From: Christiangramia echinicola DSM 19838
GTDB lineage: Bacteria > Bacteroidota > Bacteroidia > Flavobacteriales > Flavobacteriaceae
NCBI RefSeq assembly: GCF_000423065.1
Contig: NZ_AUHG01000012.1
Span: 372,001-436,000 of the forward strand
DNA length: 64,000 nt
Reading direction: 5' to 3'
The position numbers and the translations under genes are program-made. This document shows, piece after piece, positions 41,155-45,176 of this stretch; the first letter of the stretch is position 1; each line of letters starts with the position of its first letter. The notes below the pieces were generated by a model. That model saw nothing but the letters and a program-made list of their open reading frames with translations, was not told where the DNA came from and made no database searches.

Positions 41155-43560
41155 ATGAAAAGAAGGATTAATAAAGTTGCAGTTGTAGGATCCGGAATTA
41201 TGGGTAGCGGTATCGCTTGCCATTTCGCTAATATTGGCGTAGAAGTCTTACTTCTGGACATAGTTCCTCGTGAACTTAACGAAAAGGAAAAGAAAAAAGG
41301 CCTGAGCCTGGATGATAAAGTTGTTCGTAATAGAATTGTGAACGATTCACTTCAGGATTCTGTAAAATCTAAGCCCTCTCCTATTTACCATAAAGATTTT
41401 GTGAATAGAATCACAACAGGAAACCTGGAAGATGATATTTCAAAAGTTTCTGAGGTAGACTGGATCATTGAGGTGGTTGTTGAACGTCTTGATATTAAAA
41501 AACAGGTTTTTGAAAACCTTGAGAAGCACAGAAAGTCAGGAACTTTGATCACTTCAAATACTTCTGGTATTCCAATTAATTTTATGACCGAAGGTCGTAG
41601 TGATGATTTCAAGAAACATTTCTGCGGAACGCACTTCTTTAACCCACCAAGATATTTGAGGTTATTTGAGATCATTCCTGGAAAGGAAACTTCAAATGAT
41701 GTTCTTGAGTTCCTTGAGATGTACGGCGAGAAATTCCTAGGGAAAAAGGCAGTTCTGGCAAAAGACACTCCTGCATTTATAGGTAACAGAATCGGGATTT
41801 TTTCTATTATGAGTCTTTTCCATATGGTAAAGGATATGGGAATGACCATAGAAGAGGTTGATAAGCTTACCGGTCCTGTAATTGGGCGCCAGAAATCGGC
41901 AACCTTTAGAACTGTTGATGTTGTTGGATTAGATACTCTAGTTCACGTTGCAAATGGTCTACATGAAAATGTACCTAATGATGAGCAGCACGATCTGTTT
42001 GCTCTGCCCGATTTCATCAACACCATGATGGAGAACAAATGGTTAGGTAGTAAAACAGGACAGGGATTCTATAAGAAAATAAAGAAAGAAGACGGTTCAA
42101 GTGAGATCAAATCTTTAGATCTGGATACCTTAGAATATCGCGATCAGAAGAAAGCTTCCTTTGCAACACTGGAAATGACAAAAACAATCGACAATGTTGC
42201 CGATCGTTTTGAGGTGCTGGTAAATGGAAAAGATAAAGCCGGAGAATTCTACAGAAAGACTTTCTCGGCACTTTTCGCATATGTATCGAATCGTATACCA
42301 GAAATTTCAGATGAACTTTATAAGATAGACGATGCCATGAAAGCCGGTTTCGGTTGGGAACACGGTCCATTCCAGATCTGGGATGCGATTGGAGTTCAGA
42401 AAGGTATCGAAATGATGAAAGAGCAGGGTTACGAACCTGCTGCATGGGTTACTGAAATGCTGGAAAGTGGAAGCGACAGTTTCTACACCGTTAAAGAAGG
42501 AAATACCTACTATTATAATTTAGACGATAAAAAACAAACCAAAGTTCCTGGTCAGGATGCATTTATAATTCTGGACAATATCAGGGAATCTAAGGAAGTC
42601 TTCAAGAACAGCGGCGTAGTTGTCGAAGATCTTGGCGATGGAATCCTGAATGTAGAATTCAGAAGTAAAATGAATTCTATTGGTGGTGATGTTCTTGACG
42701 GTATTAATAAAGCCATAGATATTGCTGAAAAAGACTATCAGGGACTGGTTGTGGCCAATAACGGTAAAAACTTCTCTGTAGGGGCAAATATCGGGATGAT
42801 CTTTATGATGGCTGTGGAGCAGGAATATGAAGAGCTGAACATGGCGATCAAATACTTCCAGGACACCATGATGAGAATGCGCTACTCCTCTATTCCAACT
42901 GTTGCTGCACCACATGCGATGACACTTGGTGGTGGATGTGAAATGTCTTTACATGCAGATATGGTTGTTGCTGCTGCTGAAACCTACATCGGATTAGTAG
43001 AATTTGGTGTTGGTGTGATCCCCGGTGGTGGTGGAACCAAAGAAATGACGGTTAGAGCTGCAGATACTTTTCAGAAAGATGATGTAGAGCTAAACCGACT
43101 AAGGGAAAACTTCCTTACTATAGGAATGGCAAAGGTATCTACTTCAGCTTATGAAGCTTATGACCTGAACCTACTTCAGAAAGGAAAAGATATAGTGGTA
43201 GTAAATCCAGATAGACAATTGGCGATCGCTAAGAAACATGCTTTGCTAATTGCCGAAAACGGATATACTCAACCTATTGCACGTAAGGATATTAAAGTTC
43301 TTGGTAAACAGGCATTGGGTGCTTTCTTAGTGGGAACAGACCAGATGGCTGCAGGAAAATATATCAGCGAACATGATAAGAAGATCGCGAACAAACTAGC
43401 TTATGTAATGGCCGGTGGTGATCTATCATCGAATCAGTTGGTAAGTGAACAATATTTATTAGAACTGGAACGAGAAGCATTCCTATCGCTTACAGGAGAA
43501 AGAAAAACCCTGGAGCGTCTTCAGCATATGCTGAAAAAGGGGAAACCGCTACGTAATTAG
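41155..43560 (+). CDS. fadN: 3-hydroxyacyl-CoA dehydrogenase/enoyl-CoA hydratase, FadN-type
   Basis: An 801-residue bifunctional beta-oxidation enzyme. The N-terminal NAD-binding dehydrogenase starts VAVVGSGIMGSGIACHFANIGV, with HFFNPPRYLRLFEIIPG and the dehydrogenase C-domain following. The C-terminal third carries the crotonase fold (FSVGANIGMIF, TLGGGCEMSLHADMVVAAAETYIGLVEFGVGVIPGGGG). This order, dehydrogenase first and hydratase last, is that of Bacillus FadN and opposite to E. coli FadB/FadJ. Gene order fadN-fadA-fadE also matches Bacillus. Its stop codon lies within the left edge of a repeat element (GTAATTAG, 43553-43560). Confidence 0.9.
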   Translation: MKRRINKVAVVGSGIMGSGIACHFANIGVEVLLLDIVPRELNEKEKKKGLSLDDKVVRNRIVNDSLQDSVKSKPSPIYHKDFVNRITTGNLEDDISKVSEVDWIIEVVVERLDIKKQVFENLEKHRKSGTLITSNTSGIPINFMTEGRSDDFKKHFCGTHFFNPPRYLRLFEIIPGKETSNDVLEFLEMYGEKFLGKKAVLAKDTPAFIGNRIGIFSIMSLFHMVKDMGMTIEEVDKLTGPVIGRQKSATFRTVDVVGLDTLVHVANGLHENVPNDEQHDLFALPDFINTMMENKWLGSKTGQGFYKKIKKEDGSSEIKSLDLDTLEYRDQKKASFATLEMTKTIDNVADRFEVLVNGKDKAGEFYRKTFSALFAYVSNRIPEISDELYKIDDAMKAGFGWEHGPFQIWDAIGVQKGIEMMKEQGYEPAAWVTEMLESGSDSFYTVKEGNTYYYNLDDKKQTKVPGQDAFIILDNIRESKEVFKNSGVVVEDLGDGILNVEFRSKMNSIGGDVLDGINKAIDIAEKDYQGLVVANNGKNFSVGANIGMIFMMAVEQEYEELNMAIKYFQDTMMRMRYSSIPTVAAPHAMTLGGGCEMSLHADMVVAAAETYIGLVEFGVGVIPGGGGTKEMTVRAADTFQKDDVELNRLRENFLTIGMAKVSTSAYEAYDLNLLQKGKDIVVVNPDRQLAIAKKHALLIAENGYTQPIARKDIKVLGKQALGAFLVGTDQMAAGKYISEHDKKIANKLAYVMAGGDLSSNQLVSEQYLLELEREAFLSLTGERKTLERLQHMLKKGKPLRN

Positions 43561-43590
43561 TAGTTAGTATTGAGTAAAGAGTATTTAGAA
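43553..43590. repeat. left flank of the four-helix-bundle insertion
   Basis: The segment contains GTAATTAG, TTAGTATTGAG (43564-43574) and GTATTTAGAA (43581-43590). Inverted copies of the last two occur after the small gene (CTCAATACT at 43949-43957 and TTCTAAATAC at 43968-43977). The same words, GTAATTAG and TTAGTATTGAG, reappear inverted at the right end of the gene-free copy near 45250-45276. Confidence 0.6.
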
Positions 43591-43941
43591 ATGCACAAAT
43601 TAGAAGATTTAAAAGTTTGGAACAAAGCGATGAAAGTTGCTGAAGAGATTTATGTCTTGAGTTCCGGTTTTCCTTCTTCTGAAAAATTTGGCTTAACCAG
43701 CCAGATTCGAAGAAGTGCTGTTTCTATTGCTTCTAATATAGCTGAAGGGGCCGGGAGAAATACGAAAGGTGAATTCAGAAACTTTTTAAGTATTGCCAGC
43801 GGTTCTTCCTATGAACTTTTTACTCAATTAACTTTAGCTTATAAATTAAAACTTACTTCTCAGAATTTGGTGGATCCAATTTTGGAGGAAGTTGTTGAGA
43901 TTCAAAAAATGAATTACTCTTTAATAAAAACTTTAGTGTAA
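43591..43941 (+). CDS. four-helix bundle protein (23S rRNA IVS/S23 family)
   Basis: A 116-residue protein of the family first seen in 23S rRNA intervening sequences. It begins MHKLEDLKVWNKAMKVAEEIY and has the signature LTSQIRRSAVSIASNIAEGAGRN, then EFRNFLSIASGSSYELFTQL. Family members form homopentameric four-helix bundles; the diversity-generating-retroelement accessory protein Avd shares the fold. No reverse transcriptase or variable repeat is nearby. ATG 43591 is chosen because the TTG at 43570 lies inside the repeat flank. It sits between fadN and fadA, where fadA is normally adjacent, and looks like an insertion. Confidence 0.88.
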   Translation: MHKLEDLKVWNKAMKVAEEIYVLSSGFPSSEKFGLTSQIRRSAVSIASNIAEGAGRNTKGEFRNFLSIASGSSYELFTQLTLAYKLKLTSQNLVDPILEEVVEIQKMNYSLIKTLV

Positions 43942-43981
43942 TGTTTATCTCAATACTCATTACTAAATTCTAAATACTAAA
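43942..43981. repeat. right flank of the four-helix-bundle insertion
   Basis: It contains CTCAATACT (43949-43957), CATTACTAA (the complement reads TTAGTAATG) and TTCTAAATAC (43968-43977), mirroring the left flank. It ends 5 bp before the fadA ATG. Confidence 0.6.
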
Positions 43982-43985
43982 AACA

Positions 43986-45176
43986 ATGAAAACAGCATAT
44001 ATAGTAAAAGCATATAGAACCGCAGTAGGGAAAGCTCCAAGAGGTGTATTTCGCTTTAAGAGACCTGATGAACTGGCTGCGGAAACCATCCAGTACATGA
44101 TGGATAAATTACCAGATTTCGACAAGACGCGAATTGACGACGTGATGGTTGGAAACGCCATGCCGGAAGCAGAACAGGGATTAAATGTTGGTAGATTGAT
44201 CTCACTCATGGGATTAAAGATCGAAGACGTTCCCGGTATGACCGTGAATAGATATTGTGCATCAGGATTGGAAACGATCTCTATTGCAACAGCGAAAATT
44301 CAAAATGGAATGGCCGATTGTGTGATCGCAGGAGGAGCGGAGAGTATGAGTTATATCCCTATGGGAGGTTATAAACCGGTACCAGATTATAAAGTCGCCA
44401 AAGAAGGTAACGAAGATTATTACTGGGGAATGGGATTAACTGCGGAAGCAGTTGCGAATAAATACAAGGTTTCTCGTGAAGACCAGGATGAGTTCGCTTA
44501 TAACTCTCATCAAAAAGCGATCAAAGCCCAGGCTGAAGATCGTTTTCAGGATCAGATCGTTCCAATCAACATTGATGAGACTTATGTAGATGATAATGGT
44601 AAAAAACAAACCAGATCTTACACTGTAAATAAAGACGAGGGTCCAAGAAAAGATACTTCCATTGAAGTTCTTAATAAACTACGCCCGGTGTTTGCTGAAG
44701 GCGGAAGTGTTACAGCAGGTAACTCTTCCCAGATGAGTGATGGTGCAGCCTTCGTAATGGTAATGAGCGAGGATATGGTGAAAGAATTAAACCTTGAACC
44801 AATCGCCAGAATGGTAAGTTACTCAGCAGTTGGTGTAGAGCCGAGAATTATGGGTATCGGGCCGGTTCATGCAATCCCGAAGGCATTAAAGCAAGCCGGA
44901 CTAAAGCAGGATGATATAGAACTAACCGAATTGAATGAAGCATTTGCCTCCCAATCCTTAGCAGTTATTAGAGAGTTAGGTTTAGACAAGGATAAAGTAA
45001 ACCCTAATGGTGGAGCCATTTCTATGGGTCACCCGCTTGGATGTACTGGGGCAAAACTTTCAGTTCAGATCTTTGATGAAATGCGTAAGCGTGAATTAAA
45101 GGACAAGCATTGCATGGTCACCATGTGTGTGGGTACAGGACAGGGTGCAGCCGGAGTATTTGAATTTTTGAACTAG
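43986..45176 (+). CDS. fadA: acetyl-CoA acyltransferase (thiolase)
   Basis: A 396-residue thiolase. The acyl-binding nucleophile lies in VNRYCASGLETISIA (Cys about 92). The second-half motifs are LNEAFASQSLAVIRELG, NGGAISMGHPLGCTGAK and MCVGTGQGAAGVFE with the second catalytic Cys. It carries out the thiolytic last step of beta-oxidation. It is part of the marR-fadN-fadA-fadE operon and is flanked on both sides by the short repeat insertions. Confidence 0.93.
   Translation: MKTAYIVKAYRTAVGKAPRGVFRFKRPDELAAETIQYMMDKLPDFDKTRIDDVMVGNAMPEAEQGLNVGRLISLMGLKIEDVPGMTVNRYCASGLETISIATAKIQNGMADCVIAGGAESMSYIPMGGYKPVPDYKVAKEGNEDYYWGMGLTAEAVANKYKVSREDQDEFAYNSHQKAIKAQAEDRFQDQIVPINIDETYVDDNGKKQTRSYTVNKDEGPRKDTSIEVLNKLRPVFAEGGSVTAGNSSQMSDGAAFVMVMSEDMVKELNLEPIARMVSYSAVGVEPRIMGIGPVHAIPKALKQAGLKQDDIELTELNEAFASQSLAVIRELGLDKDKVNPNGGAISMGHPLGCTGAKLSVQIFDEMRKRELKDKHCMVTMCVGTGQGAAGVFEFLN

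Follow-up and report, generated by a model that had tools for sequence, protein, structure and literature searches.

The described system closest to the locus treated here is the intervening sequence (IVS) of 23S rRNA that carries an open reading frame (ORF) for S23p. In Coxiella burnetii, according to PMC4990558, an IVS of about 430 nt carries an S23p-type gene in the stem of terminal inverted repeats of 28 bp, has been proposed to be selfish or a remnant of transposition, and was excised by RNase III in vitro. A unit of the same size and layout is found in Christiangramia echinicola DSM 19838, in a stretch of 64,000 nucleotides of contig NZ_AUHG01000012.1 (positions 372,001 to 436,000, the whole of which is called the window below), where an S23p-type gene of family PF05635 stands between inverted repeats of 33 nt. 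Unlike the 23S IVS, the window unit lies outside rRNA, between protein genes, and often has several counterparts per genome. Its arms are made of heptads. Complementary heptad runs that form a stem, with alternative words in the same role, have also been described for P6b of the Nostoc trnL intron, but that stem is located inside a group I intron and a PF05635 gene is not mentioned in the accessible part of the report (PMC4476775). We consider it likely, with a probability of roughly 0.68 that includes the mechanism proposed below, that the window holds one copy of a compact hairpin element (~430 nt), in which inverted arms of degenerate 7-nt repeats surround a PF05635 gene.

The gene of the window copy (43591..43941, forward strand) encodes 116 amino acids from its ATG, within an ORF that spans 43570-43941. 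It matches the four-helix-bundle family PF05635 (23S rRNA IVS / S23) with E=8e-38 and 129.4 bits (curated cut-off 33.8) and TIGR02436 with E=5.3e-37 and 126.4 bits (curated cut-off 24). The left arm (43557..43589, forward strand) is composed of the quasi-tandem heptads TTAGTAG, TTAGTAT, TGAGTAA and AGAGTAT followed by TTAGA, and is complementary at 28 of 33 positions to the right arm (43948..43980), which contains the inverted heptads. When 20,000 random pairs of positions at about the same spacing were scored in the window, 15 reached at least 34 and all 15 fell on the element, and in a finer scan (36-nt pieces, partner within 600 nt) this score was attained by the element alone. The identity at lag 7 amounts to 71% in the left arm and 65% in the right arm, values reached by none of 20,000 shuffles and by 0.03% of them, respectively. 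The 433-nt RNA of the unit, coding part included, is predicted to fold better than 100 of 100 shuffles (z=-4.0), and the predicted minimum-energy structure pairs the two arms. In this respect the window copy resembles an IVS, as its complementary ends would form a terminal stem around the ORF.

The upstream gene of the operon, a fadN-like 3-hydroxyacyl-CoA dehydrogenase/enoyl-CoA hydratase fusion (41155..43560, forward strand), has its stop codon within the left arm, and the right arm ends 5 nt upstream of the start codon of the downstream gene, which was identified as a fadA-like thiolase (43986..45176, forward strand). The copy is thus situated between two protein genes and not inside a 23S rRNA gene. 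The PF05635 gene is the sole ORF of at least 60 amino acids between the arms, and no transposase is encoded among the ORFs of that length. The presence of a gene sets the unit apart from a miniature inverted-repeat transposable element (MITE), which has inverted ends without a coding gene. The preliminary description of this DNA had proposed an IVS-type gene of 116 residues between fadN and fadA, which the family matches and the identities of the neighbours bear out, and had correctly placed the fadN stop codon in the left edge. The short flanking words that it listed are inverted between left and right, as it stated, yet they are fragments of one 33-nt inverted repeat, and the 7-nt period of both arms had been overlooked.

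Five PF05635 matches occur in the genome of C. echinicola. One of them (L002) has an in-frame stop and lies in a gap that we take to be sufA/iscA-sufB; it stands outside the count of neighbour orientation, in which the other four (L001, L003, L004 and L005) are each located between two co-directional genes. The arms are strong in the window copy (score 41) and in the copies with the words TAGTGGAAAG(T/G)GGAAAGAGGA (41) and AAATTGACAAT...AATTGACAAT (39), and weaker in those with TTTAAAATTCAA (29) and AATRTTAAAGGTWTAAA (24). Hence the five copies differ in arm word, and the end sequence common to all copies that characterizes a classical transposon is not found. The preliminary description had expected the same flanking words elsewhere in the genome; instead, each copy has its own pair of words, and what the copies share is a period of 7 nt. 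As the words change from copy to copy, a search for identical words would miss the other copies although the form is present.

PF05635 genes are frequent in related organisms. Among the matches listed, 23 of 24 genomes of the genus have the gene, with 1-17 copies per genome (17 in genome G007), and it is present in 145 of 199 genomes of a family sample and 232 of 296 of a phylum sample. The genus loci represent a choice among the matches listed, mostly with intact frames; from 139 profile matches in 127 of 144 loci, 112 intact elements were retained after incomplete matches, duplicates and loci near ends had been dropped. The left flank compared with the reverse complement of its own right flank gave a median local score of 26.5, versus 16 for mismatched pairs, whereas the direct similarity of the flanks was 16.5 for own and 16 for mismatched pairs. 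The own pair exceeded the 99th percentile of mismatched pairs in 26 of the 112 elements and the 95th in 73, and was the best in its row in 19; since orthologous copies share words, mismatched pairs can also score high. The autocorrelation of the flanks amounts to 0.44/0.43 at lag 7 and declines to 0.39/0.38 at lag 14 and to 0.35 at lag 21, where shuffles give about 0.30; in sequence 200-400 nt away from the genes the lag-7 value is 0.256. The lag-7 identity is lower in other gaps (0.334 in 179 gaps pooled from the loci, 0.302 in 28 gaps of the window), so most of the excess belongs to the PF05635 genes, with a weak echo elsewhere.

Both the inverted excess of own pairs and the peak at lag 7 recur in the family sample (28 elements from 30 loci) and in new loci of the phylum (29 from 29). 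A scan with one genome per species, which yielded 76 elements from 80 loci, added 23 further elements of Bacteroidota and 53 others of the same form; these loci were the best 80 of 585 and those of family and phylum the best-scoring matches, which means that none of these samples is random. The 53 elements outside the Bacteroidota have stronger arms (median 38 for own and 15 for mismatched pairs; 42 above the 95th percentile), and their carriers include Clostridia, Acidobacteria, Planctomycetes, Fibrobacter, Kiritimatiellota and candidate phyla. Here, outside means that the record title does not name Bacteroidota: two titles (L265 and L271) name no phylum and one (L248) names Ignavibacteriae, while L254 and L265 contribute two elements each. 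In the class of a Thiohalocapsa genome, 60 of 369 genomes have a match, and the 23 elements analysed from 30 loci, which recount the Thiohalocapsa copy of the previous scan, have the same form. The same is true for 13 elements from 13 plasmid loci, 12 cyanobacterial and one from Riemerella, where L309 and L320 are one plasmid site in two versions. A search of 50,697 phage records (tblastn with L175) gave no match at E 1e-5.

A z-score above 3 at lag 7 was obtained for 61 of 112 elements in the genus, 17 of 28 in the family, 16 of 29 in the phylum, 12 of 23 among the further Bacteroidota, 34 of 53 outside this phylum, 8 of 13 on plasmids and 15 of 23 in the Thiohalocapsa class. The arm words differ by lineage, each being written in both arms (for example AGTGGTT, CAGTTCT, AGGGACA, AAGCCTT and GGTGGAC). 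Read from the outside inwards, the arms contain 2.6 to 7.7 times as much G as C in all six sets; arm letters and arm distances were taken from arms scoring at least 26. The form was found in every sample of PF05635 genes taken, though not around every gene. Judged from these comparisons, what the ends of the element share is form, that is the period of 7, the inversion and the excess of G over C, and not sequence.

The relation between the two arms becomes clear when copies at the same site in the genus are compared (pairs that are not independent; the mismatched background is 16). In pairs with at least 85% protein identity (n=26) the mean arm score within the own copy is 29.0 and that across copies 28.8, and at 70-85% (n=125) the values are 28.3 and 28.0. 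At 55-70% (n=83) they amount to 26.6 and 22.4, at 40-55% (n=70) to 25.7 and 17.3, with own above cross in 68 of 70 pairs, and below 40% (n=69) to 26.2 and 18.8, with own above cross in 60 of 69. The own score is kept while the cross score falls, which implies that the word is free and the pairing is kept. In terms of these scores, both arms of diverging copies change and still pair.

With respect to position, 102 of the 112 genus units are co-directional with both neighbours, whereas other adjacent gene pairs are on the same strand in 65 of 104 cases. The median gaps to the neighbours are 40 and 38 nt and are nearly filled by the arms. The same orientation was observed for 27 of 28 units in the family, 25 of 29 in the phylum, 23 of 23 in the other Bacteroidota, 11 of 13 on plasmids and 30 of 53 outside the Bacteroidota. 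Clustering of neighbours yielded 20 recurring sites in the genus, some of which, going by the protein ends, are presumably sufA/iscA-sufB, ffh-folD, ruvC-hemW and his genes, and site is also the main grouping in the protein tree. Of the ten exceptions in the genus, nine belong to a single site, lepA-yebC, where the unit is antisense (L075, L076, L078, L079, L081, L085, L087, L091 and L095, in nine genomes); the tenth is at a contig end. The preliminary description had suggested that insertion into structured RNA may be a general habit. The observations do not support this, as 23S rRNA words were absent from the loci screened, and the units occupy gaps and the ends of genes, in most cases with co-directional genes on both sides. 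Exact insertion at stop codons was also considered, since the left arm frequently begins no more than about 15 nt from the stop of the preceding gene. However, L315 is located within the coding end of its neighbour, and selection against broken genes explains the proximity equally well.

Of the 22 fadN-fadA gaps compared in the genus, 13 carry a unit and 9 do not, so empty sites exist in relatives of C. echinicola. The empty gaps of two genomes (G008 and G018) retain a stretch that resembles the right arm of element type B and looks like a scar. On the host tree the four element types at this site show a scattered distribution. Types A, B and C form protein clades with support of 0.97, 0.95 and 0.97, yet the 13 filled tips require 8 changes among the four types on the tree of flanking genes, the maximum possible. 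The FadA proteins of G000 (type A) and G021 (type D) are 98% identical and their elements are different. The 24 mvaD-mvaK gaps comprise 8 with a unit, 13 that are empty (44-73 nt), 2 with another insert and 1 that could not be parsed. The units of G005 and G019 are broken by stops, and the spacer seen in empty gaps is largely lost from the filled ones. The other insert (L290 and L294, in G006 and G021) is a different sequence of 489-490 nt at the place where eight relatives hold the unit.

On cyanobacterial plasmids the alternation can be followed between near-identical sequences. In Nostoc, pNsp_a and pC052_D have a unit before one gene where pNsp_c is empty, and pNsp_c has a different unit behind that same gene, where pNsp_a and pC052_D are empty; the plasmids of L325, L326 and L327 are empty at the first site. 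Likewise, Trichormus and Scytonema plasmids are filled at a site where those of Aulosira and Microchaete are empty at ~97% identity. The empty sites read AAAAAGTAATTAACAAATAA (one base differs further on), versus AAAAAGTAAT-unit-GTAATTAACAAATAA in Trichormus, which amounts to a 5-bp duplication, GTAAT. A further plasmid (L323) has a decayed copy at the Trichormus-type site that matches only profile positions 2-33. Units with the same word adjoin unrelated genes in Nostoc, Aulosira and Trichormus. For Aulosira and Trichormus the similarity between such units ends within about 5 nt of the insertion borders, and for Scytonema it ends 16 nt inside the left one. As far as these alignments tell, arms and gene come and go as one block at near-identical sites. 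The mvaD-mvaK word starts with AATTG, which is already found at the end of the gene at the empty site, and we therefore considered whether the target seeds the arm word; as a general rule this is contradicted by cyanobacterial copies, in which one word recurs at unrelated sites. The suggestion in the preliminary description of a small unit inside operons, mobile now or formerly, agrees with the empty sites, the copies at other sites and this block insertion.

Relatives without the gene exist as well. From 18 short arm matches listed (H47-H64) four were inspected, and all four are hairpins with the same arms and loops of 80-105 nt; no PF05635 match was detected in these four (L329-L332). They reside on Nostoc plasmids, have heptad arms and no annotated feature at the match, and by eye a second hairpin is visible in the loop of three. 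Type II MITEs of Anabaena sp. 90 are likewise short, mostly intergenic hairpins with inverted ends and no matching transposase, but the accessible text of PMC3542288 ties them neither to PF05635 nor to a period of 7.

A model of the family, built from 12 aligned members, has a predicted local distance difference test (pLDDT) value of 96 and matches XCC0516 (2gsc, template modelling (TM) score 0.93) and 2rld. Avd of diversity-generating retroelements (DGRs) has the same fold (4dwl, TM 0.81; identity 14-19%), with weaker E-values, and is also matched in its complex with the DGR reverse transcriptase (8ube and related). XCC0516 is the solved member, the title of whose structure paper reportedly mentions five four-helix bundles; its best identity in the genomes searched is 59%. 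Heptamers of the type GGGAATC are known in Xanthomonas. In contrast to a DGR, the unit is without a reverse transcriptase. The family RVT_1 (PF00078) is absent from the C. echinicola genome and from 17 of the 24 genus genomes in all, including G007, and present in 7. As the genome with most copies lacks it, a reverse transcriptase of the RVT_1 family is not needed to keep the units.

Taken together, the comparisons show a unit that behaves as a block, occupies many sites mostly between co-directional genes, differs in type between related species at the same site and has relatives that lack the gene. In the mechanism that we propose, base pairing between the transcribed arms would enclose the gene in a stem-loop like that of the 23S rRNA IVS, and insertion into an operon would be tolerated because the stem insulates the insert or lets RNase III cut it out. 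Slippage within an arm, together with copying between the arms of the hairpin, could rewrite the word in both at once. The PF05635 protein, a relative of the retroelement protein Avd, may bind the stem and aid the spread, with the joining enzyme presumably supplied in trans. Several observations weigh against a hairpin element of this kind. Per set, 35-48% of the elements remain below the z>3 threshold for period 7, the arms of two of the five own-genome copies are weak (29 and 24), and co-directionality on both sides is absent or unreadable in 10 of the 112 genus elements and in 23 of the 53 outside the Bacteroidota. Only one site shows a clean target duplication (GTAAT). A second candidate, TTCTA, is ambiguous in that its letters could also belong to the arm, and bases are lost or rewritten in other filled and empty pairs: about 8 nt are lost inside the neighbour's coding end at the L315/L373 junction, the spacers are rewritten at the L311/L374, L313/L376 and mvaD-mvaK junctions, the second Nostoc unit has extra bases at the right junction, and the site in the 'empty' partner of L308 is occupied by a different sequence. 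These junctions speak against a 5-bp target duplication as a general feature. Moreover, only 5 of 19 inner branches of the flanking-gene tree are firmly supported (three of them are sister pairs carrying C/A, B/A and empty/B), and plain homologous recombination of neighbouring genes could place different types at one site and may explain part of the fadN-fadA pattern.

Several other explanations have to be considered. The gene and hairpin could be a resident regulatory cassette that belongs to the host operons, adjusts transcript stability or coupling of the neighbours, and is inherited with losses without being mobile. The grouping of the genus proteins mainly by site, the 20 recurring site clusters and the co-directional, tightly packed arrangement are in line with such a cassette, which we nevertheless regard as unlikely in view of the filled and empty plasmid pairs at ~97% identity, the gene-less hairpins with the same arms, the scatter of element types over the host tree and the same cyanobacterial words beside unrelated genes. 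Known transposases recognise a defined end sequence, and the copies in the C. echinicola genome have none in common; in addition, the association of gene and arms recurs in samples of many phyla. A conventional non-autonomous transposon, which would carry the four-helix gene as cargo and be mobilised by the transposase of a host insertion sequence, is therefore distinctly unlikely, even if inverted ends, one clear 5-bp duplication and gene-less MITE-like copies would suit it. Retro-mobility, in which a reverse transcriptase would copy the hairpin RNA and the four-helix protein would act as Avd does in DGRs, seems very improbable given the distribution of RVT_1, despite the superposition of the family model on Avd, both alone and in the DGR ribonucleoprotein, the mostly co-directional insertions and the PF05635-Avd resemblance remarked upon in PMC10053308. 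Hardly credible, lastly, is an artefact of simple repeats, where polymerase slippage enlarges 7-nt repeats in many gaps and the gene is merely nearby: slippage yields direct runs, whereas the two sides are reverse complements and stay so as the words change. The mild lag-7 excess in other gaps of the loci and the enrichment of seven-base repeats in gaps of Xanthomonas and Nostoc (PMC4692102, where their role is unexplained) would agree with slippage.

Should PF05635 genes form the core of a mobile hairpin element, three questions may merge into a single one open to testing: what this unexplained family of genes is, what the rRNA intervening sequences are, and where the seven-base repeats of several phyla come from. 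It would also be unusual for a mobile element to have ends that conserve period and complementarity without conserving a sequence. A wider proposal, for which we see somewhat less than an even chance, is that the hairpin elements constitute a separate class of mobile DNA across bacterial phyla. Its ends would be recognised not by sequence but by form, whichever seven-base word is repeated in the inverted arrays; the PF05635 protein would be its sole dedicated gene, and the word would be rewritten in both arms together. Its gene-less offspring would include part of the unexplained seven-base repeats, and of the MITEs without a transposase, in cyanobacteria and other groups, and the 23S rRNA intervening sequences would be a special case. 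That the seven-base repeats of earlier papers belong to this element is a proposal and not a result. The TAACTGA repeats of Beggiatoaceae, cyanobacteria and Bacteroidetes, for instance, are likewise seven-base, intergenic, unexplained in origin and found in overlapping bacterial groups, but according to PMC4679880 nearly all are direct repeats of one word, without inverted pairs around a gene. In the literature searched, which left most subscription papers and bioRxiv preprints outside, no report linking PF05635 to seven-base arms was found, nor one that connects this family with the heptad intron stems, seven-base repeats and MITEs described earlier.

Some individual loci deserve mention. At site 12 of the genus (L077, L083 and L124) the coding end of the upstream gene is overrun by arm heptads, which gives the protein a repetitive new C-terminus. 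The Riemerella unit (L312, 2965-3381, NZ_CP081930.1) occupies the sufA/iscA-sufB gap, the same gap as in the genus of C. echinicola; this record is filed as a plasmid, but carries lepA and sufB and may therefore be chromosomal sequence. The plasmid records label the PF05635 genes 'four helix bundle protein', 'S23 ribosomal protein' or hypothetical. Units are also hosted by CRISPR (clustered regularly interspaced short palindromic repeats) operons of cyanobacterial plasmids (L308, 2995-3363; L314, 1501-1860; L313, 1492-1848), with insertion points between cas6 and cas4 twice and between cmr2 and cmr3 once.

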